NCBI GenBank assembly: GCA_026075535.2
Contig: AP026539.1
Coordinates: 3,782,001-3,846,000 of the forward strand
From: Tricholoma matsutake
Lineage: Eukaryota; Basidiomycota; Agaricomycetes; Agaricales; Tricholomataceae
Reading direction: 5' to 3'
DNA: 64,000 bases
Both the position numbers and the translations under genes were made by a program. Shown here piece after piece: positions 1 through 38,960 of this stretch. A model generated the notes under the pieces. That model was given only the letters and a program-made list of their open reading frames with translations, had not been told where the DNA came from and did no database searches. The first letter of the stretch is position 1; every line of letters begins with the position of its first letter.

Positions 1-900
1 AACAACCCCAGGACCCCACAACAACGATGAGGCAACAACCCCAGGACACCCAATGACGACCCCAGCACTGGCACCGGCACTGGCACCAACACACCAAACA
101 ATGCCCCGCAGGCCCCAGCACTACCCACCCAAGGCACTGGGTTCCAAATGACACACCACCCATTTCCAGGCCCATGAGCAACTGCTCATGGGGTGGATCA
201 CGGGTGGCATACTGGCTACGAGAGGAATGACAAACAGAGCCAAGACAACACTCGCTGCACCTGCAAGCATGACCACAGCAGCATCCCAACCCACCACTGT
301 AAATGACTGCTGGGAATGGGGCAGGGACGACAACAATAATGACAACCATGACCACAACTACGACGGGAACAGCGAGGCGGGCAGGGTCCACAGGGATGAC
401 ACAAGATGAGAGGGAAACAAAGGGGAGCAGGAATGAGGCCCAGGAGATCTCGATGTCTCCTGGGCCATAAGTAAGTTTTTTTTTTGTTTTCTTTTTGTCC
501 CTGTGACAGATGACCGGTGATGACAGCGACCCAGCACCACCCCCAGATGACAATGCCCATGGCACCAGACCCCTCCACTATGAGCAACTGCTTGTAGGGG
601 GCAAGGCTGGTGCATATGAGCCAACGGCGGTGGGGAAGGGGAATGACGCCGAGAAACGACATGATGAAACAGCCCAAATGACATGCATCATTGTTTGGGC
701 CATAGATATTTTTTTCTTCTTTCTTTTTGTGTTTCATTTTACTAACTTTTTGGCCCTTCTCCCTCCTCTCCCTCTCCTGCCCCCCCTCTTCCCTTCTCTG
801 CCTTCCCCTCACTCTCTCCTCTCTCCTCTCTCCCCTCCTCTCTCCCCTCCCCCTTACTCCCTTTCACTTCATGCCTCACTCCCCTCTCCCTCACTCCCTT
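1..900 (+). repeat. Fragment of hairpin-rich composite repeat
   Basis: Low-complexity CCAGCACC-type sequence grades into the palindromic parts found in the composite elements further right. A TGAGCAACTGCTCA palindrome followed by TGGGGTGGATC lies near 178-198, and a diverged copy near 579-597. A perfect 11-bp inverted repeat, GGCCCAGGAGA / TCTCCTGGGCC, lies at 437-466 and is followed at 471 by the donor-like GTAAGT, a T-rich tract and a possible acceptor at 507-509. A second palindrome, GCCCAAA / TTTGGGC, lies at 672-700 and is followed by a T-rich tract and ACTAACT. A CT-rich tract fills about 760-900. I find no terminal repeat on the right, and the left end lies outside the window. No convincing protein is encoded; long frames here come from compositional bias. 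Confidence 0.6.
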
Positions 901-1722: not shown

Positions 1723-3294
1723 CTAGCACCCCAAACTGGAGCTGAGTGAGGAAACATATAATTGTGTCATCAGGGCAGTTGACAAACATAATAAGTGTAG
1801 TGAGTGAGGTACTAGGCCATGGGCACAGTGAGAATCAGCAGCATTGGATATGAAAAGAGGAAGTATGGATTTGATATAATGCCAATATTCAAGACAACCA
1901 GAAGTAGAACTGGTCCAGAACCCCTGTGTTGCAACCACACTGGGAGCAATACCTGGCAAGAGGAGTTCTGTGGCACCACCTATGCAAAAGGCATGACCTG
2001 GCATCTGGGGAAGACCAGCTGCAACCCACATGGCATTACAGTGGTTCATGAACCAAGACTTGGTCATGGGTGCCCAGCCACCATCAACTGTCTCATAAGC
2101 AAAGAGGGTGCAGAACTGGGAATAAGAGCATTGGTGCAAAGGTGATGTCTGAGGGCAAGTGGAGTGATTGTGAGCTGTGACAGAAACATCAGCACCCGCT
2201 TCAGCTGTGGTCTTAGTCCATGGAATACAGAAGGAGGTGTGTTCTGTACTGTTAGAAAGATGAGAGAACTGAATGGGGAGAATGCTATGAGAAACATGTT
2301 TTGACGGGTTGAAACAATTTTGGCTGGGAATGATGAGCTTGCCTAGCCTGAAAAGAGAATGAATAAAGAGCAAATGAAGGGAGAAAGGAACATCCTGACA
2401 ACAGGACCAGAAAGCAACAGCCCATACTGATGCATCAAAGGCATTGGAGAGATTGAGTCCCAACCTCAAAGTGGTCAGGGCCACAATGGTGACTGGGGGA
2501 TGCTTTGCTTGCTTGGAGCTGGGGGGACAAGTTTTGAGAAACCACAGCAAACATGGTGGAGCATGTTGGAGCCATGCCACGCTGCACCATTGACAACATG
2601 CCAATACTGCAAGCTGGCCCAGTTGTTGAGAGCACTCTTGGACACAGATACAGCTGTGGAAGCAGCAAAGGAAGAGAGTAGGATTTCAGATGCCAGCATC
2701 TGACTATGTTCTGGGATGCTATGGGAGTCACAGTACTGAGTAAAATGAAGCAAACCTGTGCCATAATTACTGCATGTGCTCTCATCCAAGGAGAACAGTA
2801 TGACCTTGAATAACTTTAAAATGGCTGAAGGGGGGAGCTGAGAGTCAAGAGAGGATTGGAAGATGTCAGAGTGAGGGGTTGTCCAGTGGAGAACCTGCTT
2901 CCTGGCAAGAACATTGGGACAATGCAAAGAGGGGACAATGTGTCCATCTTTACACATACTTGGTAGACAAATGTGGCCATGGGGGGGAAGAGATGCAGTG
3001 TGACAAACATTGAGAGGGGGATTGATGTAGAATGTGGTGGCCTGCACTGGAATGTCCACACCTTCAAGAAAGGAGGAGAGATGGTCAGAGAGTGGCATGA
3101 ACAATGAACAGAATGAGAGCAGAGGGAAGGCTTTGGAGGCTGGAGGGAGAAAGCCATGAGAGATGGGGTCTGCAAGATTGTTGATGGTGTTCACATAAGT
3201 AAGTGTGACAGAGATGTCCATCTCCTTGCATACCTCATCAGAGTGACAAATGGAGATATTTGTCATGAAATTGGAACACTGGCCCTTCAAAAAG
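1723..3294 (-). pseudogene. Tyrosine recombinase (and RNase H tail) of a DIRS-like retroelement, decayed
   Basis: Read leftwards from 3294, the first residues are the end of an RNase H domain: HSDEVCKEMD, then NLADPISHG, the usual RNase H-to-recombinase junction. A catalytic-core-like region follows, with FRLGKLIIPS (box I Arg retained), WTKTT (active-site Lys region), GHAFCIGGATELLL and then CLEYW carrying the probable nucleophilic Tyr. In the family the third motif reads HxxR; here the Arg is Cys, which one C-to-T change at a CpG would produce. A frameshift lies near 2505, because the upstream frame stops at 2475 while the downstream frame is already open at 2604. The upstream half lies at 5168-5531 and 7047-7330, separated by two insertions. 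The copy is certainly non-functional. A Crypton is less likely because an RNase H precedes the recombinase. Confidence 0.75.
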
Positions 3295-3565
3295 GAGTAC
3301 ATTACACTCCTCCACCTATTCCAGTCGGATTCCAGTTGGAATGCCCATTGTGGTCAGAATTTCCAGAATTCTGGGGAATTCCATTTACATATATTTTTCT
3401 CACAATTCATAATTCTGATCAGACTGGAGGGTCAATTTTACCTCTGGAATCCCCGGAATCTACCTGGACTCATTTCTATTTGGAACAGTCGGATCAACTG
3501 GATGCATGGCACTAGCATAAGCAGAATAACTGGAATGCATGTGCTTTCCCAAATAAAATTTCGAT

Positions 3566-3642
3566 GTGCAACAAGAATTGAACACTTGACCTTGGGTCTG
3601 CACACATAACAGCACACTTAACCACTGAGCTACCAAGTCATT
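3566..3642 (-). repeat. tRNA-like segment, outward facing (left arm of element 1)
   Basis: On the minus strand the segment carries a box A-like TAGCTCAGTGG and, about 45 bases later, a box B-like GTGTTCAATTC, in tRNA order and spacing. This is the internal RNA polymerase III promoter layout of tRNA genes and tRNA-derived SINEs. I could not draw a clean acceptor stem or anticodon arm, so I do not call a functional tRNA. It points towards the nearer terminus, as do its counterparts in two sister elements. Confidence 0.6.
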
Positions 3643-3900
3643 ATTCACCTACATACATCTAATACTTTTATTACCCAACCAAGGTGCATAGTTACAGCCA
3701 TTAATGGAATATGCACACATGCATATTGCATGACACGTGACATGTGACTGCCAGCTCACAACCACCACCACCATCGTCAATGCCACCTCCTCCTCCTGTC
3801 CACTCTACCACAACCACTGTGTGCACACCTGCCACCACCATTCCCATGCCCACTGCCACTATCACCACCACCTTCAAATGAGCCAACTGGATGGAACACA

Positions 3901-4000
3901 GGCCCAAATGACAGCAATTGTCATTTGGGCCATAGATAAGTTTTTTTCTTTTTTCTTTTTCTTTTTATCAATCAACTAATTTTAATTTATTGCTTTTTAG
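3901..4000 (+). repeat. 13-bp palindrome followed by intron-like tract
   Basis: GGCCCAAATGACA (3901-3913) and TGTCATTTGGGCC (3919-3931) form a perfect inverted repeat with a 5-base loop. Directly after it comes CATAGATAAGT, a donor-like sequence whose GT has become AT, then a T/C-rich tract, CAACTAAT as a possible branch site and TTTTTAG ending at 4000. Equivalent copies elsewhere in the window keep GTAAGT or GTGAGT at this place. Confidence 0.65.
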
Positions 4001-4314
4001 GCTATATACTACTGGGGACAACCTGCTGCAATGGAAAACATGCAATGGAAAAATGCACAATGGAAAAATGTGCAATGGATGCCCACAGCCACCCAATCCC
4101 CTCCTCCCCTTTCAAATGGGATGTGAGGCTGTCAACACAGGCTAGGTGGGTGCAGAGGGATGCCAGGAGACCCCAGAAGGGGGATACCTGCCTAGTAAGC
4201 ACCCACCAACCCCTGTACATACACCCAAACCCCTCTCCCCCCCCCCAAAAAAAAAAAGAAAAAGACAGAAATCCAAACGGGGATGATGGTGACAAACAAC
4301 AACAAGCCACCCAC

Positions 4315-4520
4315 CTCCAGCCTCACAAGCAACTGCTCATGGGGTGGAGCATGGGTCGAATGATGCCCAGGCACAGGGACAGGAGACAACAATGACACAC
4401 CACCTGCCCCCAGCCTCACGAGCAACTGCTCATGGGGTGGATCGTGGGTGGAACGACAATGACGACAAGCCACCTACCCCCAGCCTCACAAGCAACTGCT
4501 CGTGGGGTGGATCATTGGTG
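4315..4520 (+). repeat. Three ACTGCTC palindrome modules
   Basis: Three copies of a module of roughly 90 bases lie in a row: GAGCAACTGCTC-type palindrome, then TGGGGTGGA, then a degenerate GGGTGGAACGA. They are centred near 4332, 4425 and 4500. Flanking arm bases differ between copies (CAAGCA / TGCTCAT, CGAGCA / TGCTCAT, CAAGCA / TGCTCGT). The same module recurs in the other composite elements and near 23.0-24.8 kb. Confidence 0.65.
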
Positions 4521-4554
4521 GAAGGACAGACAACAGCAGGGTCACATCCCCTCC

Positions 4555-4815
4555 CCCTCCCCTGCACTTCATGTGGGGAGGGATTTTTTTTGTACTTTTA
4601 ATTATTTATTAGTATTGTGCCCCCCCTCCCCTGTTTTGCATGGGAGAGGGATTTTTTTCATCATGTTTTTACCTCCCCCCTCGCATTTGGCGCGAGGGGT
4701 TAGCTTTTTATGTATATAAATAAAACTCCCTCTCACATCTTGTGAGAGGGAGGATTTTTTGTTTATGTATATAATCACAATCATGCCCACTCCCTTGCAT
4801 TCAATGTGAGGGATG
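4555..4815 (+). repeat. Series of five GC-rich hairpins, several followed by T runs
   Basis: Five consecutive inverted repeats have the same layout but different sequences: CCCTCCCC / GGGGAGGG at 4555-4582; a CCCTCCCC-type hairpin at 4621-4650; CCCCTCGC / GCGAGGGG at 4677-4699; a perfect 12-bp CTCCCTCTCACA / TGTGAGAGGGAG at 4726-4752; and a weaker one at about 4791-4812. The first, second and fourth are followed by six or more T residues. They resemble bacterial intrinsic terminators, but the setting is eukaryotic, where T runs can end RNA polymerase III transcription. Confidence 0.65.
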
Positions 4816-4901
4816 TGGTTAATTAAAAAAATTTGATCTTAACTACTTCGAAAAAAATTAGAGTGTCATGAATAAACATTATATTACTAACTAATAATTC
4901 T

Positions 4902-4990
4902 CCTGTGGCTCAACTGGTTAATCACACATGTTTGGTTTGTCATGTGATCACTCTAATCAAGATGTCTTGAGTTCAATTCTTACTCTGCAC
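4902..4990 (+). repeat. tRNA-like segment, outward facing (right arm of element 1)
   Basis: A box A-like TGGCTCAACTGG and a box B-like GAGTTCAATTC occur in tRNA order. Between them CACATG and CATGTG could form an anticodon-like stem, although with an enlarged loop. The spacer is long, as in class II tRNAs. Orientation is towards the right terminus, mirroring the segment at 3566-3642. Confidence 0.6.
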
Positions 4991-5167
4991 AAATATATTT
5001 TGTAGGCACTTTGACAACTTAAGACTTGAAATTTGACTATCCATTAGGGTATATACTCTAAGTTGAGCATCTGGAGTAACCAGAATCTGGTTGGAATAAC
5101 TGGAATCCACTGGACTCCGGTGAGTCCGATTGGAATAGGTGGAGGAGTCCAAATTACTGTCAAAAAG

Positions 5168-5531
5168 GCACCAATGACTCCTTTGTTATCACTTCAGATA
5201 AGAATATCTGCTGCATTGCAAATGCCCATCACCCTTGAGGCAAGGATGGTGAGTTTGACAGTGACCCCTTCAAGCCACCCAATGTTCCTGCTTGGACCCT
5301 TCCATCCATCAAGTGCCACACAGCCCAACAAGAACCCCAGAGTCATCCAATGCCCCATTTGGTGGATGCATCAATCCAGATATCATAATCATGGGTGGGA
5401 GTGGATGGAGTAAGCAACTGAGGACAGTGGACCTGTGAGAGAAGAGAGAACCACCATCAAAGATCTGAGAGTGCAGAGGAGGAAATCCCATGGGGAATGT
5501 AATTGTTGAGGAATGAAGTAAGCCATCTATA
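5168..5531 (-). pseudogene. RNase H region of the DIRS-like retroelement
   Basis: Read leftwards, the fragment begins with ANLYRWLTSFLNNYIP, typical of the linker after the reverse transcriptase, and continues through DIWIDASTKWGIG (first RNase H Asp), WAVW and later frames giving KGVIGAF, the segment around the third acidic residue. It continues across composite element 1 into the recombinase fragment. At least two frame changes and internal stops are present, including one in the first acidic block. The fragment is bounded on both sides by composite-element insertions. Confidence 0.7.
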
Positions 5532-5810
5532 CAAGTTAGCAGTACTTTGCACTCACCACCTAATCCTATAGGACTCCAAGTTGTCTGAGTGGAGTCCGAC
5601 TTTTCTGACTGGAGTCCAATCAGACTGTTATCAGACTATTATTGGACTGTCACTCCAAGATTGATGTAGGAGATTTCTGAGAGTATTCCAAGTAAATTCC
5701 ATTCTGAGTAGAGTCCGAGTATAGTCTGAGGGAATCTGCACAGATTCTGAGTAGTGAATGACTTAGTAATCTTTGTGGAATAAAGTGTGATCAAAATTTG
5801 AATGTCAAAG

Positions 5811-5887
5811 AAAGGGTTTGAACTCAAGACCTCAGGATTATGGTCACATGACAAATTGGCAGTCTACCACTCAGCAAACCAGGCAGT
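5811..5887 (-). repeat. tRNA-like segment (left arm of element 2)
   Basis: The minus strand reads a box A-like GGTTTGCTGAGTGG and a box B-like GAGTTCAAACC. A TCATGTGACC motif lies between them, shared in part with the other tRNA-like segments of the window. It faces the nearer terminus. Confidence 0.58.
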
Positions 5888-6196
5888 ATTATTTTGTGTT
5901 ATTAATACTACTTATTGAGCAGTTGCTTGCAGCAGTGGGGGTGGGTGCTGGGTTGTCTTCATCATCCTGGGGGTGGGTGTTTTGGGGGATTTGGGCAGGT
6001 CAGTGCAACGTGGCACATCTATGGGTCTAGTTGAGGGCTTACCTGGTGGGTATCCCCCTTCTGGGGTCTCCTGGCATTGCTTTCCATGCTCCTGACCCTA
6101 ATTGATACCCTCACATCCCATTTAGATGGGGAGGAGGGGTTTGGGCATGCATGGGTCATGTCATGTCAGCATCCATTGTTACCACTAAAGTAAAAC

Positions 6197-6293
6197 CTAA
6201 AACATAGTAAAAAGTTAGTTAGTAATTTTATAGAACCAAGGAAGAAAAAAAAACTTACTTGTGGCCCAAACAATGATGAGCATTATTTGGGCC
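6197..6293 (-). repeat. Palindrome plus 62-nt intron-like tract
   Basis: On the minus strand a GGCCCAAATAATG / CATTGTTTGGGCC inverted repeat (6263-6293) is followed by GTAAGT (6253-6258), a T-rich tract, TTACTAACTAAC as a branch-site match and TTTTAG ending at 6197. The 62-nt length from GT to AG is normal for a fungal intron. Confidence 0.65.
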
Positions 6294-6371
6294 TGTTGTG
6301 TTGGTGCATGGACGTGTGTGCATGCATTGGGGATTTTTCATTGTTGCCTGTCATTACCAGTAGTATACAAC

Positions 6372-6471
6372 CTAAAAATCAATAGAATACAATTAGTTAG
6401 TTGATAAAAACAAAAAAGAAAAAGAAAAAAACTTATCTATGGCCCAAATGATAGTTGCCATTGTTTGGGCC
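6372..6471 (-). repeat. Second palindrome/intron-like module of element 2
   Basis: On the minus strand, GGCCCAAACAATG / CATTTGGGCC arms lie at 6441-6471, followed by ATAAGT in place of a canonical donor, a T-rich tract, CAACTAACTAAT and TTTTTAG ending at 6372. The lost GT matches the copy at 3901-4000. Confidence 0.6.
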
Positions 6472-6707
6472 TGCATTGCATTGACTCAGCTCATTTGCAG
6501 TGGTTCAGACTCATAAAATGGGCTGGGAGGTGTGGGTACAATGGCGATGGTGGTGGTGGTATAGAGGAAAGGAGGGAGAGAGAGCAGCTGTCATTGTTGA
6601 TGGTGGTGGTGAGGGGAAGAATGATGAGCTGGCAATGATGCAGCTGTGTGCTTTGTCATACATAGCTGCAGGAATGGTATGTGGATAACAAAATGTCATC
6701 AGATGCC

Positions 6708-6761
6708 ACAAACCTGTAGCTTAGTGGTTCAGGGTTGATGGTTCAACTCCATTGCATGAAA
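6708..6761 (+). repeat. Shortened tRNA-like segment (right arm of element 2)
   Basis: TAGCTTAGTGG (box A-like) and GGTTCAACTCC (box B-like) are separated by only about ten bases, so the anticodon and variable regions appear deleted. Orientation is outward. Confidence 0.55.
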
Positions 6762-7046
6762 TTGTTTTTAATTATATTCTAATAAGTATTCCAAATGTAG
6801 TCCAAGTGGGTTCCTAGTAGACTGATAGTCCAGTGGACTCCCTGTGTCCTTGTATAGTCTGGGCAGAGTGCACCCAGACTGGACTTGGACTGGACTTGGA
6901 CAAAAATTGCTTGGACCTGCCATATCAGCACTGTTTGACTGCATAGGCAGTCCATGAGTTGTCCTACTCAGACTATACAGAGTACATGGACTCCATGTGG
7001 CGTCCTATTAGGATTAGGTGGGGGAGTGTGAAGACCTCCAAGTTAG

Positions 7047-7330
7047 ACATGGAGAAATGTCCATGACAGTGAACAAAAGTAATGTGAGAGAGAACACCAA
7101 TGACACTCTCAGCCTGAGGTTTGAATACCTGTGCTGACTCGCATGCAAAAATGAGAGAGGAGACCTTGCACAGATACTTTTCATGTTTGTGATTGAGGAG
7201 AGAGTCAGTCTTCTTGGGAAGATCCCAGTGAAAACTGAGATAAGAAAAGGTGTCAGCAAATTCTTGGCCCTTGTCCTTTGTAAGAGTAATGGTACTCTTA
7301 CCTCACAGCTTAGTAATACATACAATCAGC
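7047..7330 (-). pseudogene. Reverse-transcriptase C-terminal part of the DIRS-like retroelement
   Basis: The minus strand reads FHWDLPKKTDSLLNHKHEKYL and later HITFVHCHGHFSMSNL, matching the stretch between the RT catalytic core and RNase H in DIRS-like elements of mushrooms (GFxWDLxxxTVSLPxxKxxKY, then xHxxFVxxxGRxxLxxL). It joins the fragment at 5168-5531 once the composite element is removed. I could not identify the catalytic RT motifs upstream; a third insertion begins at 7428. Confidence 0.6.
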
Positions 7331-7725
7331 TGACCTAGGATACATATACAAATGACTTTACTTGTGTCAAATCTAATCTTGCATCCCCCAAGAAATATAA
7401 CTTGTTCCACTTTAGTTCTCATGCTACCAGTTCTTTGAGGTCCAGTCTGGTCCAGTTCTTATATTTCGAAAACAATAAAAAAACTGGACTGGACTTTACA
7501 GGACTGGTCCACTATGGTTACAAGTGGTTTCGAGACTGGTTCTAACCACTCCAGACCTTACATCAGTCCTGACCAGTCCTGTGACTAGTCAGGACCAGTT
7601 ATCTACTGACTACCATGTACTTATGGACCGAGTACTTACACATAATTAAATGAAAACAAAAAAAGAGATAAAATAAAGAATTACCTCACAATCCCCCCTG
7701 TGATCAGTGACTCGCGAGGCTGGAT

Positions 7726-8335
7726 GTGGGTGCTTGGTATCGGCATTAGCCCTGTCATCATCATCAGCATTGGCCCCATCTTTGTTGTTGGCATTGGCCC
7801 TGTCTTTGTTGTTGTTGTTGGCCCCATCTTCATTGTTGTTGTTGGCCCTGTTGTTGTTAGTCTTCATGTTGGCCCTTTCATCATTGTCGTCAGTGGTGGT
7901 GTTGGCCCTGTCATTGTTGGTGTTGGTATTGGCTCTTTTGTTGTTGTCATTGTTGTTGTTGTTGTTGGTGTTGGCCCATCTTGTGTGTTGGCATTGGCCC
8001 TTTTATCGTTGTTGTTGGTGTTGGTGTTGGCCCTGTTGTTGTTGGTGTTGGCATTGGCTCTTTTGTTGTCATTGTTGTCATTGTTGGCATTGGCCCCATC
8101 TCATGTGTTGGCATTGGCCCCATCTCCTGTGTTGGTGTTGGCCCCATCTCATGTGTTGGTGTTAGCCCCATCTTGAGTGTTGGCATTGGCCCATTTTTGT
8201 CTGTTGGTGTTGGCCCATTTTTGTTTTTGTTAGCATTCACCCTGTTGTCATCGGCATTGGTGTTGGTGTTGGTGTTGGCCCCATCGTTGTTGTTGTTGGC
8301 CCTGTTATTGTTGTCATTGGCCCATCATCACCATC
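7726..8335. repeat. GTTGTTGGCCC / GTTGGCATTGGCCC minisatellite
   Basis: Irregular repeats of GTTGTTGTTGGCCCTGTC and TGTTGGCATTGGCCCCATC fill about 600 bases. All frames stay open for long stretches because of composition: the plus strand gives Val/Leu/Gly-rich peptides and the minus strand repeats MGPMPT-like units. I read these as artefacts of the repeat, not as a gene. Confidence 0.75.
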
Positions 8336-8408
8336 CCACCCACCCTATGAGCTCAGAGGGCTTGTAGCAGCAGTGGGGTGGTGGTTCCTGTTATCATGAA
8401 GCAAGAAC

Positions 8409-8499
8409 CTAATAAACAGATTTAAGATGTCAGTGAGTCTTCAAAGAACATGATGGAAAAGACTTACCGGGGCCCAAACAACATCTTGTCATTTGGACC
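8409..8499 (-). repeat. Palindrome plus 59-nt intron-like tract
   Basis: On the minus strand GGTCCAAATGACAA and TTGTTTGGGCC form an imperfect inverted repeat (8471-8499), followed by GTAAGT (8462-8467), a TC-rich tract, CACTGACAT as a branch-site match and TTAG ending at 8409. Confidence 0.6.
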
Positions 8500-9049
8500 C
8501 CATTCCCCTTTGTTGAGGCTTGAGGTGGTGGCAATGGAAGGATTGCACAGTATTGTGGCTTGTGGCAATACAGTACAAATAGATATAAACATATGAACAA
8601 AACATGTAAACATGTCAAAAACTTGTAAATGAAAGCATGTGACCATGCAAATAGGGACAAATGGTCTGTGCTCATGTTGCAGTATTTAAACAGCTCACTT
8701 TTTTCTCTTTTCATTTGGGTATGCCCCATCTTTTAAGTACACAATAATGTAAATTATATTGGATTATTGTATAGACATATATATAATTGTTATCTGTTAG
8801 CTCGGACCATAAGTTCGGTTGAGAACTGGTCTAGACTGGCTCTCGACGGTTCTAGTAAGTGTTGAGGAGAATGAGGACCAAGAACCAGACCATTTCAAGA
8901 CCTGATTGAACTGGGACTGATGGTCCTATAGGACTGGTTACAAATGTCAGTTTGGTTTGGTCTGGTCCTTGGTTCTTGGGACCAGACCTCAAAGCACTAC
9001 GTGCTACCTCAGTGTTGGATTTTCATACATCCTTCCACTTTTTTTTTAA

Positions 9050-10480
9050 GGTTGAATGAGCCACCCTCAGCAACTCCCTCCCATTCTTACTGTGTTATTG
9101 CCTACACTGCTACATGGTTCCCACATTATCACCAACACCCTTATTGCACCCAAACCAAGCCTACCCAAACATGTAACTGGTTGGGGACACCATAAATTCA
9201 TTTCACTGCCTGCCCATCACACTTCCAAACTTCTATCTGCCCCAATGCCCAGCTTCCCAAGCTTCTACCCACCCTGCCAAACATTCATTAAAGAACCATG
9301 GTGCTTTATACAGGCAACACATACACAAACACCCTCCCAAAGATATAACACCACACTGTGAAACACCCCAAGAACTAAACTCCCTAGTAACACTGGATTA
9401 CTCATCCAGCACCCCACCATCATCACTGCTACCTTCTCTGGCACCTTCACCCACATCAAGCCCTCACCTAATACAGATAAATCCACCCCACACTTGCCAT
9501 CCTCACTCCTACTTGTCTGACTCTGACTCTGCTCCCTGTTTCATGCTGTCCAACATGGCACCTGTCAACCCTGTAATAGCAAACATGCCATATTCCCCTG
9601 CTACTGTTCTCCAGACTTCCACTAGCCAACCCCCCCTCCTATCAGCCAGATCTATTACTGTTACCAACCTTTGCAAATTTGACTATGCTTGTAAACATTT
9701 CTTCACATACAGAGAGATTCCCCCTGAGGACCAAGTTGGATGCATCATCTACTTGTTCAAGTCAGAGTTTATGCAGTCCTGGATTGAGTCTGACAGTGAT
9801 AGACTGATATGCTCACCTTTGCTCAGTTCATGCTGGAGGTTAAACACAAATGGCTGCCTTTGGACTGGGAAGACGAGTTGATTCAGAAGCTCATTGCCCC
9901 TCAGGGTTACTGTGAATTCTATGAATGGTCTGTCTCTGTTCACAAGGCTAACAATAAGCTTGAAGTGGCAGACTCTTTACAACACATCCCTACCAAACAT
10001 TTCCATGCAACATCTCATTGTGCATCTCAACCCTGTGCTTTGCCTGGCTTATCATGGAGCAAAGAAGGAATTGGATGCCATCAAAGACATTGAGTCCTGG
10101 ATCCACTGCATCATCATCCTTGACATCCAACTTGCCACCCACCAAAAGCAAATCAGCACCAGCATGGCACATGCAGTGAAGAACACCGCCAAGCTGGCTC
10201 ACATGGCTAACCGCCCTGCCAATGCACACCCCATTTCTTCCACTGTAACCACAGCAAACACTTCCACAAATGCTGCCTTGAACACTTCTGCCTCTCTTGT
10301 TGGCTTTGTCGCCTCACCCAAGCTCACTGTTAAGCTCTGAGCTGGAGGAAGGAAGTCATCAGATTTCCAGTGGTACCTGGATGGTAGAAATTGATAAGGA
10401 TGGATCAAGCGGGGAAGGGAAACTGACAGGATTCTGGGGCAAGGTTTACTTGATGTGCCATACCAAGTGTGGGGACAGAA
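9050..10480 (+). pseudogene. Retrotransposon gag remnant
   Basis: Three overlapping frames together read as a fungal Gypsy-type gag. Around 9650-9800 comes KFDYACKHFFTYREIPPEDQ followed by WIESDSDRL; the next frame (9809-9990) gives FMLEVKHKWLPLDWEDELIQ; the third (to 10340) gives AIKDIESWI and a Ser/Thr/Ala-rich tail. The order and spacing match gag proteins with a helical capsid core (...FFxxxEIPxEDQ...WIxxDxDRL...FxPxDWED). At least two frameshifts are needed and I find no zinc knuckle. The sequence runs into composite element 4 at 10481 and resumes at 12622. The strand is opposite to both the recombinase element and the chromovirus, so this is a separate copy. Confidence 0.6.
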
Positions 10481-10756
10481 GAGGTCTTTACACTCCCTGC
10501 CCCAATCCAATCGGACACTTGGACAGTCCTAGGACTGTCCAAGTACTGTCTGAGGACTTTGCTTGGACTTTGCTCGGACTTTGCTCAGACTTCTTTGGCT
10601 GAAAGTCCTGCCAAACTAAATGTCCAGTCTGAGCTGAGTCCGAGCTGAGTCCTCAGACTGTCCTAGGACTGTCCAAGCATCCGAGTGGAGTCCAAGTGGA
10701 CCAGCACTTGTACAGTCCTAGGACTGTCCAAGTTGCTTATATAACTGACTGAAAAA

Positions 10757-10849
10757 TCAGTGGCTACCACAGGGATTGAACCCTTGTAGTCACATGATAA
10801 AGTACATTTAAGGCAACAATATAACTGTTAGACTAAAGTATCATTACAG
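10757..10849 (-). repeat. tRNA-like segment (left arm of element 4)
   Basis: The minus strand reads a box A-like TTTAGTCTAACAGT and a good box B, GGGTTCAATCCC, with TCATGTGACTAC between them. It faces the left terminus. Its sequence differs from the right-arm copy, so the two arms are not a recent simple duplication. Confidence 0.58.
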
Positions 10850-11062
10850 GTGGATAGTTTTATCTCTCTATGTACCACCCCGGCTGTGATGACAAATCAA
10901 CACAGCCATGTCACCAACGATGATGCCAGCTCATCATCGATCATCACCAACCACCACCACCACCACCACTCGACAACGACGCCTCCCTCCTGCATCCTGC
11001 CGCTGCCACTGCCCCCCTGAACACCCCACAGCCATGGGCCCCATGCCAGCACACAATGAAAT

Positions 11063-11163
11063 GGGCCCAAATGACTCTATCATTGTTTGGGCCCCAGGTG
11101 AGTTTTTTCTTTTTTCTTTTCTCATGTTTTCTTTAAGCTAACACATTTTTTCATTAATTATAG
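11063..11163 (+). repeat. Palindrome plus 66-nt intron-like tract
   Basis: GGGCCCAAATGA pairs imperfectly with TCATTGTTTGGGCCC (11063-11095). GTGAGT at 11098, a TC-rich tract, GCTAACAC at about 11138 and TAG at 11161-11163 follow, giving a 66-nt GT-AG segment with a good branch-site match. Confidence 0.67.
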
Positions 11164-11344
11164 GTTATATCTATACTGTAGCAGCAAAATGACCCAAAAC
11201 CACCAAATGAGGAACAATGACAAGACCACGACCCAGCACCCACCCCCACCAGTGCGAGCAACTGCTCGCATGGGGGAGAGCAGCTGCTAACGATGACAAC
11301 AACGACAGGGAATGATGACACCACCCACCCCAGCCCTACAAGCC

Positions 11345-11452
11345 ACTGCTCGTAGGGTGGATGATGGGTGGACTGCTCGTAGGGTGGATGATGGGTGGAC
11401 TGCTCGTAGGGTGGATGATGGGTGGACTGCTCGTAGGGTGGATGATGGGTGG
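11345..11452 (+). repeat. 27-bp tandem repeat, four copies
   Basis: ACTGCTCGTAGGGTGGATGA followed by TGGGTGG is repeated four times almost exactly. Each unit is the right half of the palindrome module found elsewhere, so this looks like local amplification of half a palindrome. Confidence 0.8.
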
Positions 11453-11471
11453 AACGACGATGATTAGGGGA

Positions 11472-11561
11472 GACCCAAGAGACATCAACGTCTCTTGGGT
11501 CCTAGGTAAGCTTTTTTTTCATTTTTCATTTCATTTTTCGATGCTAACTAACTTTTTATAG
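11472..11561 (+). repeat. 12-bp palindrome plus 56-nt intron-like tract
   Basis: GACCCAAGAGAC (11472-11483) and GTCTCTTGGGTC (11490-11501) pair perfectly although both arms differ from the GGCCCAAATGA version. GTAAGC at 11506, a T-rich tract, GCTAACTAAC at 11543 and TATAG at 11561 follow. Confidence 0.7.
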
Positions 11562-11639
11562 GTATAAACTACTACTGGCAACGACGACAACTGGGGGACA
11601 CCACCACCACCACTGCTGCGAGCCCCTGCTCGCAGGGTG

Positions 11640-11915
11640 GAAGGTGAGGGTGAAGAGACGAGGGGGAAGGGGGATGAGGGGGAAGGGAGATGAGAGGGAA
11701 TGGAGATGAGAGGGAACAGAGATGAGAGGGAACAGAGACGAGAGGGAACAGAGACGAGAGGGAATGGAGACAAGAGGGAATGGAGACAAGAGGGAACAGA
11801 GACAAGAGGGAATGGAGACGAGAGGGAATGGAGACAAGAGGGAATGGAGACAAGAGGGAACAGAGACAAGAGGGAATGGAGACGAGAGGGAACGGAGACG
11901 AGAGGGAACGGAGAT
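11640..11915 (+). repeat. GAGAGGGAACAGAGAC-type minisatellite
   Basis: About sixteen units of 18 bases alternate between GAGGGAACAGAGAC and GAGGGAATGGAGAC forms. Open frames on both strands are compositional. It lies between an ACTGCTC palindrome (about 11617) and another at about 11958. Confidence 0.8.
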
Positions 11916-12113
11916 GACGATGAGTGGGGACACCCACGACGACACCTGCCCCACGCCTATGAGCATCTGCTCATGGGGTGGTTTGGGGGGGTGAAGAATG
12001 GGGGACAGGAGAGCAAGATGGCCAGGGGACGACCCAGGGAGAGACGAACACCACCATGAGCAACAGTTGCTTGTGGTGGGTGTTTTTAATTTATTTTTAT
12101 TATGGATAGTTAT

Positions 12114-12190
12114 GGCCCCCTCCCCTCAAGCTTGCGAGGGGAGGGCCTAGTATTACACATATTAATTACCCCTCGCACAGATGCGAGGGG
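12114..12190 (+). repeat. Two GC-rich hairpins
   Basis: GGCCC(C)CTCCCCTC pairs with GAGGGGAGGGCC at 12114-12147, and CCCCTCGCA pairs with TGCGAGGGG at 12169-12190. They occupy the same position relative to the right tRNA-like segment as the hairpin series at 4555-4815 does in element 1. Confidence 0.68.
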
Positions 12191-12270
12191 GTCAATTTAA
12201 TAATCTATTCATGATATATATAAAAATTAGATTTCAGTAATAAATAGATATAATGTATGTGACTTTAAAT

Positions 12271-12361
12271 GACTACTTGGCTTAAGTGGTAGAGTGTGCA
12301 TGTTTGGTCATCATGTGACCGCTAGTCCAGAAGTCTGTTGGTTCAATTCCTACTGTGCACA
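12271..12361 (+). repeat. tRNA-like segment (right arm of element 4)
   Basis: TTGGCTTAAGTGG (box A-like) and TTGGTTCAATTCC (box B-like) are in tRNA order, with GCATGTTTGGTCATCATGTG between them. It faces the right terminus. The core matches the right-arm segment of element 1 (ATGTTTGGT, CATGTGA, GTTCAATTC). Confidence 0.6.
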
Positions 12362-12621
12362 CACCATTTTGTGAGACTTATAAGAATTTCTGTAAGTCTG
12401 GAACTTGGACAATACTTTAAAGGTGTAAGTAAATGCACAATTGATGTTGTCCAAGCAAAGTCCGAGCAAAGTCCGAGTGCAGTCCTCGGCCAGTCCGAGT
12501 GAAGTCCGAGTGTCCGAGCAGAGTCTGAGCATAGTCCGAGTGAAGTCCTTGGACAGTCCGAGTGTCCAAGTGTGTCCGAGCAGAGTCCGCTCAGACTGGG
12601 GGGGGGGAGTGTAAAGTACTG

Positions 12622-12904
12622 GGACAGAAAGGACTTGGTTTCAACTTATAAGAAGTTGTACCCTTCTCCTCATCAAGTGTCCTAATTTCAAGACAAGGGT
12701 AAAGAGGAAGATCAGAGGTCTGGGGATTTCCCAGAGAGGATGACCTAAAGTTCAAGATAGACTTAAGAGAATATTTGGAGCATAATTGGGTTGGAATTAA
12801 GTTGGTGACTTGGTTGATTTACAATACAAGACGAAAGTAGCTAGCTTAAATACTAATGCTGGAGGCGATTGGAGTTTCTGAGGCTGTGATAATTTGCAAA
12901 CCAG
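12622..12904 (-). repeat. Distal part of a chromovirus 3' LTR (probable)
   Basis: After removing the solo LTR at 12905-13924, this sequence is continuous with 13925-14077. On the minus strand it contains TATTTAAGC, a possible TATA element, and a CT-rich run. I could not fix the outer LTR end; part of this stretch may instead be the continuation of the gag remnant that ends at 10480. Confidence 0.35.
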
Positions 12905-22115: not shown

Positions 22116-22364
22116 TTGTTGGCATACTAGTTTTTTGGGTCTTTACCACTTATCTACTGAGTTTGAGTAATTAGGGTTTATATGTTCTTTCATATGGTAT
22201 GTACAAAATAACTACAAAAGAAAAAACTAATATGTACAGAAAGTCCCTGGGGCCTCCTCATCATCCATGTCATCTCATCCCCATCATCCCATCATCCCCA
22301 TTGTCTCAGTCATGGGTGTATGATAGTATCATGTCAGCACATGTCTCTGGCAGTAGTATACTTC

Positions 22365-22460
22365 CTAAAAATGAACAAAATACATTATTTAGTTGAAAAG
22401 AACAAGGAACAGAGAAATGAACTTACCTAGGGCCCAAATGATGCAATCATCATTTGGGCC
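22365..22460 (-). repeat. 13-bp palindrome plus 62-nt intron-like tract
   Basis: GGCCCAAATGATG (22431-22443) and CATCATTTGGGCC (22448-22460) pair perfectly. On the minus strand GTAAGT (22421-22426), a TC-rich tract, CAACTAAAT and TTTTTAG ending at 22365 follow. Confidence 0.68.
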
Positions 22461-22704
22461 TGCATTGCACCCAAGAGGGTTCATTGGTGGCCATTGGTGG
22501 CTCTTGCTAGCATGAGAATGTGCATGGGAGTCATGGTGGTGGATGTTGATGGAGTGGAAAGGTGGTAATAGTGAGGTGAAAGGGACGATGGCAGCATCGT
22601 TGAAGGTGGTTATTATTCTAAGTTAATTCACTTGTATAGAATAAGTCACGTGAGTGCCCCATGGGGCACTCTATTCTCACAGTATTTTAATTCACTTAAA
22701 CATC

Positions 22705-22784
22705 GTCATTTGGGCTGCTTGTAAGTTTTTATCTTCACTTCTTGTTCTTTTACTTCAACTAAATTAAGTTTTATTAATTTACAG
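22705..22784 (+). repeat. Half palindrome plus 64-nt intron-like tract
   Basis: GTCATTTGGGCT is followed by GTAAGT (22721), a TC-rich tract, CAACTAAAT and TTTACAG at 22784. The left palindrome arm is not recognisable. Confidence 0.58.
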
Positions 22785-23049
22785 GTTTTGAGGGCTTCAA
22801 AGGCAACTAGTGTATGGCAGGGGTATGCCAACCCATGTGGGTATGGACCAAGGGTAGGCGCGGGTAGGGGTATGGGTATGCAAGATGCGACCCTCAATGT
22901 AAATGGCATGTCACATTGTTTAAGATGTTCTTTGTTGTTTTGTTTAAACTGACTCTTTTTTTCATTTCAGTTCTATCTATGGTACAATGACACCCCAACA
23001 CCAAAACCACAATGATGGCCAACACAGCCACCACACAAGAGACCCAGAA

Positions 23050-23740
23050 CTACTGCCACGAGCAACTTCTTGTGGGGTGGGAACAGGAATGGCAACATGC
23101 ACCAGATGAAATGGAATGACAACAAATGGAATGAGATGGAACAACAACATAACAATGAGATGATGGGAAACAAGGGGGAGGAGGTAAACCAAATGAAAAA
23201 AAGGTGGAAGAGATGTCATCTTGGGCAACCGGTAAGTTTTTTTTTTCTTTGCTTGTTTCATGTTCTTTTTACTAACAGGTTTTTAGTTACAAAGCTTTAC
23301 TATGGGGAGGATCAGGGGAAAGAGAAGGGACACAACGACAAGAGGGGGAGGACAAGGATGATGACCAATGTCAGAGCACCCCCAACCACAGCCATGAGCA
23401 ACTGCTCATGGGGAGCAAGGTGACAGGAAACGAGAGACGAGAGACAAGAATGAAGATGGGGGAACAACAACAACAATGACCAGACAACTATAACAACACG
23501 GGGATGAGGAGGAGGGGAAGGACAAGGGAACAATGAGAGCAAGAACAAGGACCAGACAACACAAATGACAACAGAAGGGGCACAATGATGGGAGGGGGAG
23601 GGGAAAGGAGAGGGATGATGATGAGACCACGACCCAGCACCCGCCCCTGCCACTGTGAGCCACTGCTTGTCAGGGTGTTAAGTTTTTTTTTTAACTTTTG
23701 GTTGTTATTCGGCTAACTGCACCTTTTTACTCTTCTTTAG
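23050..23740 (+). repeat. Hairpin-rich block with two intron-like tracts
   Basis: An ACGAGCAACTTCTTGTGGGG palindrome lies at about 23057. A GTAAGT at 23232 follows ATCTTGGGCAACCG, with ACTAACAG and TTTTTAG ending at 23286. Further ACTGCTC palindromes lie at about 23393 and 23657, the last followed by GTTAAGT, a T-rich tract, GGCTAACTG and CTTTAG at 23740. Purine-rich frames here are compositional. Confidence 0.55.
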
Positions 23741-23823
23741 GACTTTTTGACAACGAAGGCTGTCCCAGCCTACCCGTGCTCTCCTCCCCTTGCACATGGG
23801 ATGTGAGATTGAATAGGAGGTAT

Positions 23824-24267
23824 CAGTGTTTGAAGGTCCAGTCCATGGTTATGTAACAGTCTTTTGGAATTTTGAGATATAATCTGCTTGTTAAAGCCTT
23901 ACAACTTATCCTTGCATTTCAGGACTTTTTGTACACAATGTCAATATAGGACCAAAAATGTTTTGTCATTATGCCTCAGTGGTTTTTACAGAATGAAACA
24001 TATTAAACACAAAACAACTTTTCCAGTTCATACATTTTTCTCAAAACCTCGGAAAATGTATAGACTGGAAAAATTGTTTTATGTTTAGTATGTTTAATTC
24101 TGTAAAAACCCTTGAGGCATAATGACAAAACCTTTTCAATCATATATTGACATTGTGTACAAAAAGTCCTGAGATGCCAGGATAAGTTGTAAGGCTTTAA
24201 CAAGCAGATTACATCTTAAAATTCCAAAAGACTGTTACATAACCATGGACTGGACCTTCAAGCACTA
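23824..24267. mobile_element. Fold-back (MITE-like) hAT-type element
   Basis: The whole 444-bp element is one inverted repeat: two arms of about 205 bases meet near 24050 with few mismatches. The ends are CAGTGTTTGAAGGTCC and the complement of TAGTGCTTGAAGGTCC. A perfect 8-bp duplication GGAGGTAT lies at 23816-23823 and 24268-24275. The CAGTG / TAGTG termini and 8-bp duplication fit hAT and resemble the ends of composite element 3 (CAGTTCTTTGAGGTCC). It could not move without a transposase supplied in trans. Confidence 0.88.
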
Positions 24268-24359
24268 GGAGGTATCAGAGAGCCAAGTTAGTGGGATAAC
24301 TAACCACAAGGTAGGTACCTCCTGCCATGTTGCAACCTCCCCAGCTGACGAAACATGAG

Positions 24360-24830
24360 TGACGAGACAGCAATCTCCTATGCCTACACCGCTGCGAGCC
24401 TCTGCTTGCAGGGTGGACAACAGGATGAAGAACAGCAGGACGAGCTGATACCATGACACAATCTCCAATCGTGGGGTGGAAATGGGGAGCATGATGGGAA
24501 TGAGGGGGAGAAATAATGACCCCACTGCCACTTCTCGCCTGTTCATGGGGTGGATCACTGGTGGAAGAACAGGACAACAATGGCCAATCACTGCTGCGAG
24601 GAACTCCTTGTGGGGGGAGTAAACATGCAAACCAACAATGACACCAACAATGGGGAGGGGGATGATACCAGAATGATGGGCATGACCCAGCAGCCCCAAC
24701 TCTCCAACAACTATGATGATGAGAGGAAGACCAGCATGAGGATGGCCACCATCATCACCACCACCACCTTTACAGCACCCCCAACCACCGCCACAAGCAA
24801 CTGCTCACAGGGTGCAAATGGGGAGCGGTA
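24360..24830 (+). repeat. Further ACTGCTC-type palindromes
   Basis: Diverged copies lie near 24393 (GCGAGCCTCTGCTTGC), 24540, 24597 (GCGAGGAACTCCTTGT) and 24793 (ACAAGCAACTGCTCAC), each followed by a GGGGTGGA-like tail. Arm changes are often matched on both sides of the palindrome. Confidence 0.55.
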
Positions 24831-24930
24831 AGGCCAGGGACAACAGAGAGGTAGTGGGCATGATGAGGATGACAGGCATGGGGAAATGGCAACAAGGAGA
24901 CAACAGTGTCGATGCATGATCGGATGACCC

Positions 24931-24968
24931 TTGCCCCATGCAAAGCATGGGGGCAGGATTTTTTTTCT
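24931..24968 (+). repeat. GC-rich hairpin with T run
   Basis: TTGCCCCATGC pairs with GCATGGGGGCA (24931-24955) and is followed by GGA and ten T residues. The layout matches the hairpin series at 4555-4815. Confidence 0.65.
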
Positions 24969-25261
24969 TTTCAGTTTACTTGTACTAGTCTGTACCAGGA
25001 TATTGGGGGTATTAGATTTAGTGCTTTAGCAACTATACAACACAAATACACTATGTAACAATAGAGAATGTGAAAAGGAAGGCAAAAATTGAGTAAAAAC
25101 CACAGTGAATATACATGGTGTTGCACCTGTCATATTTCATGAACCCTGATGTGTCACAGTGCATCACAGGCTATCACAGGGCATCACAGGGTGATTCAGT
25201 GTGCCCTGGGAAATAGCCTTAACCCTGGGAAAGTCTGGGTCAGAAAGTAATTTTCCTGATG

Positions 25262-37108: not shown

Positions 37109-38960
37109 ATGGCGCCCGTCGCAAAGTCAGAACTGTCAGCTTCTACACAAAAAGGACGTGAATCATCAGCAAAGGTAAGAATGGGAGTGGAAGTGACCAT
37201 CTCCTTAGGCTTTTTGAATGCCTCCTGTTGTGCATTATCCCACCTCCATGCCTCCTTTCCTGTCAAGTTGAACAGTGGTCATGCATGATGTGAGAAATCC
37301 TTGATAAAACACTGATAGAATTGATGAAGCCCAGGAAAGACTGCACCTCTTTCTTGTTCGTGGGCATTGGCCAAGCCGTGACCCCATTCACCTTGATAGA
37401 ATCCATCTCTACCTGACCCTCCAAGATAATCAGGCCGAGGTATTCAATCTTGGTCTTCTCAAACTCGCACTTGTCCTGACAAAGGTAGAGTTTGTACCAT
37501 TGAAGCTGTTCTAGGATGAGGCATGTGATGTGATGGTGCTCTTCAACTGTGCAAGTGAAGATGAGGATGTCATCGAGATAGATACAAACAACACCTTCGA
37601 GGATGAGGTCATGGAAGATGTCATTCATCATGGTCTGAAAGGTGGCAGGACTATTAATAAGGCCAAAGAACATGACACGTGGTTCAAAAAGACCATGGTT
37701 GGTATGAAAGGCTGCCTTCCACTCATCTCCCTCCTTTATCCTCACATTATTGTAGCCCCAACGGATGTCGAGCTTGGTGAAGTATCGGGCTCCATGGAGC
37801 TGGGTCACGAATTCAGAGGTGAGAGGTAATGAGTAGTGATTTTTGACCATGATGTCATTGAGCCTTCTGTAGTCTTGAACTGGTCAAAGTGAGCCATCCT
37901 TCTTCTTGACAAAGAAAAAGGGAGAGGCCATGGGTGACTTTGATGGTTGAATACATCCAGAGGCCAGGTGCTTGTCGATGAACTGGTCAAGCTGTCGCTG
38001 TTCTTCAGGAGAGAGAGGATAGACCTTGCAGGATGAAGGGGTTGCACTGGGGGTGAGTTCAATTGCGTGATCCCATGGGTTGTGCACAGGGAGAGAGTTG
38101 AACGATTCCTTGGAGAACATGTCCCTGAACTCATGGAGATGAGGAAGCGAGGAATTAGTAGAGGATTTAGCAGCATTGTTTTTGTGGAAGGCCTCGGCAA
38201 GGCGTTGGGATATGTTCGATGTAGCACACACCTCATGCGATGGACAAATCTCAGTGTAGAAGATCCAATCACCTTCCTCCACTTCCTCTGGCTCCTCATC
38301 ATCATCATCATCATTTGAGTACAGCATCAGATCACTTCAGGTATAGGCAGGGGTCCAGCACAACACTTCTGAGTACATTGTGTTGCGGCCCTTTGTCCAC
38401 AACATTCTTGCCTGGCTTCTGTAAAACAAGTACGACAGTGGGATGGACATCAGCTCATGGTAGCCTCCCCGGTATGCCAGTCGACCTCTGGGTTATGGTC
38501 TCAAAGCCATGGATAGCCCAAAATCACCTTCTGCTTTCCTAATTGAGTGACAGCAAAAAGGGCATGCTCACTATGATCTTTGTAATGGAGGACCAGGTGT
38601 ACAACCTCTTGGATGGCACCAGCTTCATTTGGGGACCCATCCACATTATAAACAGGTATCGGATGCAAGAGTGAGCAAGTATTCAGGCAATGTTGTTGTG
38701 CAAGATGGGCATCAATGAAGAGACAGGTCACGCCAGAGTCCAGGAGCGCAGAGACACTGAGTATCTGTCCAGTGTCGGTAGTCTGTAGTTTGATTGCTAG
38801 GTTCAAGGAATGTGTAGAGGGAGTGGATGCAACAATATATTTGCATGGTAGTTTACATTCCCATGATTTAATTTTGGGGTGTGGAGCAGAGGGAGAGATG
38901 GGAAGAGCAGGTATGTCTTCAGCCAACTTTGAAGGGTCAGAGAGGGGAACAGTCATATTA
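37109..38960 (-). pseudogene. Chromovirus (Ty3/Gypsy) protease and reverse transcriptase
   Basis: Read leftwards from 38956: a protease with SALLDSGVTCLFID (active-site DSG intact), KQKVILGYPWL, then an acidic DDDDDEEPEEVEEGD linker, HEFRDMFSKES, ELTPSATPSS, FFFVKKKDGSL and the RT core: YFTKLDIRWGYNNVRIKEGD (first catalytic Asp), INSPATFQTMMNDIF, CIYLDDILIF (YLDD active site) and VQSFLGFINSI, then WDNAQQEAFKKPKE and FCVEADSSDFATGA where RNase H begins. A TGA near 37884 stands where Arg is expected, a frameshift lies near 37290 and another near 38500. This is the half missing from the integrase fragment at 15.1-16.6 kb. Confidence 0.86.

Follow-up and report, generated by a model that had tools for sequence, protein, structure and literature searches.

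Non-autonomous hAT elements, such as Ds-like elements and hAT miniature inverted-repeat transposable elements (MITEs), combine short inverted ends, subterminal repeats and 8-bp target-site duplications (TSDs) and have no transposase gene. hAT elements as a whole make 8-bp duplications, often together with subterminal repeats; their short terminal inverted repeats (TIRs) are of the YARNG type and their target sites are biased towards nTnnnnAn. The elements analysed here, E1 to E4, are located in a stretch of 64,000 nucleotides of the Tricholoma matsutake genome (assembly GCA_026075535.2, contig AP026539.1, positions 3,782,001 to 3,846,000), referred to as the window. They resemble non-autonomous hAT elements in their ends, subterminal repeats, duplications and lack of a transposase gene, but differ from them by ordered A/B boxes, palindrome-intron cassettes and rows of hairpins, present in varying completeness, and by an autonomous partner not found in the partial search described below. 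We know of no described family with this internal order of parts.

Other non-coding repeats share single traits with these elements. Statements taken from the cited papers refer to the available parts of those sources. The TRIMp3 elements Cassandra, Helenus and Ajax are likewise non-autonomous, carry an RNA polymerase III (Pol III) promoter derived from a small RNA gene and include fungal members, but they belong to the long terminal repeat (LTR) retrotransposons, keep the small-RNA sequence within the LTR and make duplications of 4-6 bp (PMC10886601), whereas the matsutake elements are DNA elements with inverted ends, two outward A/B units and 8-bp duplications. The dimeric Alu-like element megB1 of Agaricomycetes is a non-coding repeat known from Tricholoma; it is retrotransposon-like and resides mostly in the ribosomal DNA spacer, with one copy outside it in this Tricholoma section (PMC10627285), and was set apart by description. 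Literature searches returned no paper describing the present layout, although an entry in a repeat catalogue or in another fungal genome may exist; the terms hAT, DNA transposon, MITE and SINE (short interspersed nuclear element) are absent from the available text of PMC6980582.

We interpret the elements as non-autonomous cut-and-paste DNA transposons of the hAT type, with a common interior that has been exchanged between families (probability about 0.75). The four elements of the window are:

E1: 3295..5159, + strand; left end GAG, right end CAG; TSD TCAAAAAG at 3287-3294 and 5160-5167; full-length copies in the genome.
E2: 5540..7038, - strand; left end CAG, right end GAG; TSD CAAGTTAG at 5532-5539 and 7039-7046.
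E3: 7428..8999, - strand; ends CAGTTC / TAGTGC; TSD CATGCTAC / CGTGCTAC, with one mismatch.
E4: 10481..12621, + strand; left end GAG, right end CAG; TSD GGACAGAA at 10473-10480 and 12622-12629; family loci in the genome.

An earlier annotation made without database searches (the sequence-only reading) had proposed these eight end positions, which are borne out both in the sequence and by genome copies. It had also proposed an 8-bp duplication for each element, which is exact for E1, E2 and E4 and carries one mismatch for E3. The window contains 465 inward-facing degenerate end pairs. Exact 8-bp repeats flank four of them, namely E1, E2, E4 and a 444-bp element at 23824-24267, and allowing one mismatch adds E3 as the fifth. 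When flanks were shifted at random, a mean of 0.010 exact repeats and of 0.233 repeats with at most one mismatch was obtained, with maxima of 1 and 3 in 400 trials. CAGTA and TAGTG ends match the YARNG form; GAG ends do not. The 444-bp element has long inverted repeats, ends CAGTGTTTGAAGGTC / TAGTGCTTGAAGGTC that are similar to those of E3, and the exact 8-bp repeat GGAGGTAT.

Joining the flanks gives open runs across the insertion site of 169 aa (amino acids) for E2 (93+76), 156 aa for E4 (63+93), 142 aa for E1 (8+134) and 93 aa for E3 (31+62), all read without a random control. The sequence-only reading had taken restored frames as confirmation of two sites; the runs at E2 and E4 are supportive of insertion and those at E1 and E3 are weak evidence. 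Pfam gave no match for two host open reading frames.

The genome searched comprises 161,040,721 bases in 13 contigs. The end sequence GAGGTCTTTACACTCC has 1011 matches and CAGTACTTTACACTCC has 387, against 0 for the reversed control of each. DNA searches returned 3815 (E1), 2816 (E2), 356 (E3) and 2348 (E4) first-look candidates; with 40 scored per family, genome copies were present for all four. Exact 8-bp repeats at differing sites flank seven of the ten E1-family copies fetched at both ends, and in the E4 family exact repeats stand at, or at most one base from, the end motifs in 8/12 loci, the window's own included (L072, which bears the repeat of window E4, was treated as its duplicate). 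Both further E2-family copies have exact repeats, one of them shifted by one base at one end. The E3 family contributes one further copy, whose 8-bp repeat has one mismatch; three more loci were excluded from the count as the fetched stretches missed one end. E1, E2 and E3 (window 3287-9007) recur together at C10:970-976 kb with 95-96% identity, so this region was duplicated after the insertions; there, E2 retains the 8-bp repeat of the window and that of E3 has two mismatches. The E4 insertion with the same duplication recurs nearby, at C10:948-950 kb.

Exact 27-base E1 ends occur at 125 GAG and 97 CAG sites. Pairing within 20 kb, which took in 100 listed GAG sites and 80 of the 97 CAG sites (contigs 1-10), gave 46 entered pairs, 44 of which measure 1.35-3.2 kb (the other two about 15 kb), and the E1-type elements therefore form discrete non-autonomous families. 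None of the 117 PF05699 matches entered falls inside these 46 pairs, a comparison that variants with mutated ends would escape. The proposed search with element ends and 8-bp duplications thus yields abundant ends against empty controls and repeats at other sites (for E3, with one mismatch). At the level of sequence, the four elements are real mobile elements that code for no protein.

A fifth family shows directly that insertion takes place with an 8-bp duplication. At locus L139, one of its elements, 2149 bp long, interrupts an E4-family element and is bordered on each side by CTTCTTTG, and the uninterrupted target sequence stands in window E4 at 10586. A second fifth-family element, L121, is flanked by the exact 8-bp repeats ATATTTTC. 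Several longer end pairs were rejected as single elements: at L139, the 4.0-kb pair results from the nesting of two elements; at L121, the 8.2-kb pair, a candidate autonomous element, turned out to be a fifth-family element that contains a Gypsy-type LTR element; and three GAG-GAG pairs on chromosome 1 (4.1, 4.5 and 10 kb) have common flanks and no 8-bp repeat. The Gypsy-type LTR retrotransposon extends over about 1078-7272 of L121, with boundaries read by eye.

Under the preferred reading, a hAT transposase acting in trans would recognise the short ends (GAG on one side and CAG on the other in E1, E2 and E4) together with family-specific subterminal repeats, and its action would make the 8-bp duplications. 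The subterminal words differ between elements, as had been noted and as we see on reading; families would split mainly in these words, each probably tracking its own transposase. The common non-coding interior may be swapped by recombination or interrupted gap repair.

Several observations weigh against this interpretation. Two of the ten E1-family copies and four of the 12 E4-family loci (L071, L078, L079 and L080) have no 8-bp repeat, and a further E1-family copy repeats the insertion of the window within a duplicated region, with one base changed. The hAT target bias at position 2 is not significant (15/40 sites, p 0.11; p 0.29 when each site is counted once). In a partial search covering 30 hAT loci of 449 first-look candidates and the 46 E1 pairs, no transposase was found between these ends, and those coding hAT clusters that were followed to their 3' ends terminate in sequences other than those of the elements.

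Four coding hAT clusters were compared as possible helpers. Clusters A and D end in TTGGAGCCTTA and cluster B in TAGTGATGTACAGGGCCC, read inward, the latter being similar to TAGTGCTTTGAGGTC of E3; for cluster C, extending the sequence by 2.2 kb still did not reach the terminus. Cluster C (seven loci with a hAT C-terminal domain) carries palindromes of the CACCCCATGAGCAGTTGCTC type 3' of the coding region in five loci; of the others, L061 has two palindromes beyond an inserted GAG end and L058 has none. The density of such palindromes is 0.76/kb in cluster C, compared with 0.08 in the remaining hAT loci and 0.03 in those of KDZ. Those of cluster C may be an old insertion carried along with the cluster. 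The autonomous hAT element with the same ends that the sequence-only reading had called for thus did not emerge from the partial search, and one coding cluster carries one shared palindrome. At L122, another end of the CAGTAATTTACACT type is located 1.7 kb beyond L066. Elsewhere in the window, 42326-43582 encodes a Helitron helicase-like N-terminal domain and 37263-37850 a reverse transcriptase domain.

That no hAT partner was found leaves room for a helper from another superfamily with 8-bp duplications, either a Zisupton-type KDZ (Kyakuja, Dileera, Zisupton) element or P, which we consider improbable. KDZ elements are abundant in the matsutake genome, where we count 165 domain matches, and 8-bp duplications are stated for Zisupton as well as for hAT (PMC12730594). 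Agaricomycete Kyakuja elements, however, generate 7-bp duplications and lack inverted repeats (PMC12730594), unlike the matsutake elements, and 30 KDZ loci, covered to at most 1.5 kb beyond the domain, hold one poor end match with three mismatches; no search for P was made.

The interior of these hAT-type elements follows one order from the GAG end: an outward A/B-box unit, one or more palindrome-intron cassettes, GAGCAACTGCTC palindromes, a row of hairpins, a second outward A/B-box unit and the CAG end. This full layout is present in E1, E4 and the fifth family, and in a worn form in E2. E3 shares only the hAT-like ends and one palindrome-intron cassette and has no credible A/B-box unit, and the claim that all four interiors are built from the same kit holds for E1, E4 and, in worn form, E2. 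Kit-like stretches at window 140-760 and 22340-25000, with palindromes and with cassettes near 437, 672, 22460 and 22701, have no E-type ends around them in the scan. Together with the palindrome in a coding hAT cluster, they indicate that the kit is not exclusive to the elements. The proposal of a modular non-autonomous lineage accordingly stands as far as ends, copy number, 8-bp duplications, discrete length and part order are concerned; it is qualified by the partial state of E3, by a hAT membership to be taken as probable and by this wider occurrence of the kit. The layout is unusual, the kind of element ordinary, and a function of the interior unproven.

The outward A/B-box pairs in the window are:

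E1 left: 3575..3632, - strand; outward A/B-box pair (box scan).
E1 right: 4906..4979, + strand; outward A/B-box pair (box scan).
E2 left: 5814..5876, - strand; degenerate A/B-box-like pair (read by eye; missed by the scan).
E2 right: 6717..6750, + strand; A/B-box-like pair with short spacing (read by eye; missed by the scan).
E4 left: 10773..10835, - strand; outward A/B-box pair (box scan).
E4 right: 12278..12349, + strand; outward A/B-box pair (box scan).

The scan found both outward units in 9/12 elements (E1, E4, L070 and L072-L077, where L072 duplicates E4). In L121, the right unit was found by scan and the left by eye; inspection by eye also gave both units of the fifth-family element at L139. 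E3 contains a box pair with a spacing of 90 within subterminal repeats, which was dropped as chance. As a control background, hAT and KDZ loci totalling 204,090 bases contain nine pairs, and the whole window holds five, four of which are the E1 and E4 units. Markov re-sampling of the four window elements gave a mean of 0.46 pairs; at least one of the 300 rounds gave as many as the four observed, and none gave more. The count in the window alone is thus suggestive, and placement and recurrence in other families carry the case.

These units had been described as tRNA-like segments, a description that does not hold. ARAGORN detects no tRNAs, the Rfam tRNA model reaches 19.1 bits at one unit (cut-off 29) and nothing in 10 further loci, and all Rfam matches at a relaxed threshold stay under the cut-offs. 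For four A/B segments, shuffled versions fold equally well (z -1.02 to 0.98), and what remains are outward A/B-box pairs near both ends. Identity at the A/B units is high in the E4 family, which was set aside as a sign of selection: transversion rates at the units (0.005 and 0.011) do not single them out, with 0.003-0.008 in the neighbouring interior and 0.04-0.08 in the subterminal parts.

Each palindrome-intron cassette consists of a palindrome, 2-4 bases and an intron-like tract (GTRAGT, CTAAC, YAG). Ten cassettes, taken from the window and from L121, served as seeds of a search profile and match it by construction. The cassettes in the four elements, all profile seeds, are:

E1 cassette: 3901..4013, + strand; donor ATAAG, not GTRAG.
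E2 cassette: 6359..6471, - strand; donor ATAAG.
E2 second cassette: 6185..6293, - strand.
E3 cassette: 8396..8500, - strand.
E4 first cassette: 11063..11173, + strand; its palindrome flips among copies.
E4 second cassette: 11472..11569, + strand.

The profile matches all 12 E4-family loci (L069 being window E4), five of the eight end loci L001-L008, and L139, against 3/60 control loci: L044 (weakly), L059 and L061, the last of which also bears a GAG end. Outside the four elements, the window has four further matches, two of which (672 and 22460) are seeds. GTRAG donors are present in 31 of 42 aligned cassettes and absent in 11, including E1 and one of E2. One exact donor form has 421 genome matches (control 0). 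The first 11.84 Mb of chromosome 1 contain 39 such donor sites. Of these, 22 have an exact GAG end of the same strand 100-1500 bp further out, where random placement gave a mean of 0.25 and a maximum of 3 in 2000 trials; in total, 28 show linkage to an end of the GAG or CAG type and 11 are unlinked.

Could the elements be introners, i.e. transposons that create new introns? Introners and introner-like elements are also non-autonomous and tied to splice signals, and some with TIRs and TSDs have been described (PMC9860276), as would fit non-autonomous DNA elements with intron-like tracts. However, introners have their splice sites, supplied or borrowed, at the element ends (PMC9860276), whereas here the tract lies within the element, mostly at 0.4-0.8 kb from the GAG end, follows a palindrome and is far shorter than the element, which makes this origin extremely improbable.

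Further structured parts of the interior are:

E1 GAGCAACTGCTC-type palindromes: 4326..4509, + strand; starts at 4326, 4419 and 4489.
E2 palindrome of the GAGCAACTGCTC type: 5916..5936, - strand.
E4 GAGCAACTGCTC-type palindromes: 11255..11980, + strand; starts at 11255, 11339 and 11960.
E1 row of G+C-rich hairpins with T-runs: 4549..4815, + strand; the folds of two stretches score lower than those of all, or almost all, shuffled versions (z -2.66 and -8.55).
E4 pair of G+C-rich hairpins: 12115..12190, + strand; fold z -5.34.

The GAGCAACTGCTC palindrome followed by GGGTGG has 3184 exact copies in the genome, against 0 for the control.

Pairing was assessed in 42 aligned cassette palindromes (41 distinct) against 500 shuffles, a test that relatedness of the copies inflates. 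Cells pair in 93.3% (86.5% in shuffles), pairs have changed on both sides in 8/12 cases (5.2 in shuffles) and the covariation score is 0.324 (0.202 in shuffles), with no shuffle as high for any of the three. Sliding the partner by one column lowers pairing to 48.6% and 51.4%. Further pair types are not above shuffles (192/500).

The palindrome of the first E4 cassette has the window orientation in eight of 15 loci and the reverse-complement orientation in seven (L069-L080, L003/L139 as one locus, L005 and L007; L079 and L080 assigned by eye), and the adjoining tract never flips. The flip states are not confined to one clade, and two flank trees conflict with low support. As flips and arm-to-arm copying act on DNA, symmetry alone is no proof of RNA, and since palindromes flip in place, DNA repair can explain the kept pairing without RNA selection. 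DNA-level repair is at least as likely as selection to account for the symmetry. The claim that structure is kept while sequence drifts thus holds for the pairing of the cassette palindromes, with flips that permit a DNA-repair cause. In mechanistic terms, self-templated repair may maintain arm symmetry at least partly and would also flip the palindromes.

These data bear on whether the interior does anything. A passive interior, in which palindromes and simple repeats grow, flip and pass between elements via replication and repair, is somewhat favoured. It fits the flips, the free variation of the GA-rich tandem stretch of E4 and the palindrome cells, where G-U (39) and A-C (27) are both common and there is thus no clear sign of one-strand RNA pairing. 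It fits less well with a part order and polarity fixed in several families, with A/B pairs facing outward near both ends and with a first E4 intron-like tract that is nearly invariant (transversion rate 0.0014), though A+T-rich and CpG-poor. Selection on the interior as a functional non-coding unit, i.e. a spliced RNA with hairpin exons and outward Pol III/TFIIIC units that transcribe or insulate the ends, is doubtful. The covariation, the prevalence of GTRAG donors and the paired outward units, set against their control background, speak for it; the flips, the cassettes without GTRAG, A/B units that stand out neither in folding nor in transversion rate, a re-sampling that reached the observed count and the kinship of copies speak against it. 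A more elaborate version, in which a hAT-derived lineage multiplies a spliced non-coding RNA gene with hairpin-ended exons 2-4 bases before the donor and two outward TFIIIC-binding units that transcribe or insulate the ends, its cassette crossing transposon families that depend on different transposases, is less likely still.

Returning to hAT-type elements with an exchanged interior, such families may make up part of the unclassified repeats, which amount to 25.4% of the matsutake genome (PMC10211490). The category 'small RNA' is reported to comprise 2342 repeats (1.9 Mb) in matsutake (PMC10211490, Table 2) and 379 in T. bakamatsutake, and box-bearing elements might be filed there. Non-autonomous DNA transposons would be shown to be able to retain an ordered non-coding interior across families, and the palindrome flips would document how hairpins are naturally processed in a fungus. 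Should TFIIIC bind to the outward boxes, the elements would represent a new case of transposons equipped at each end with a boundary or promoter site of their own.

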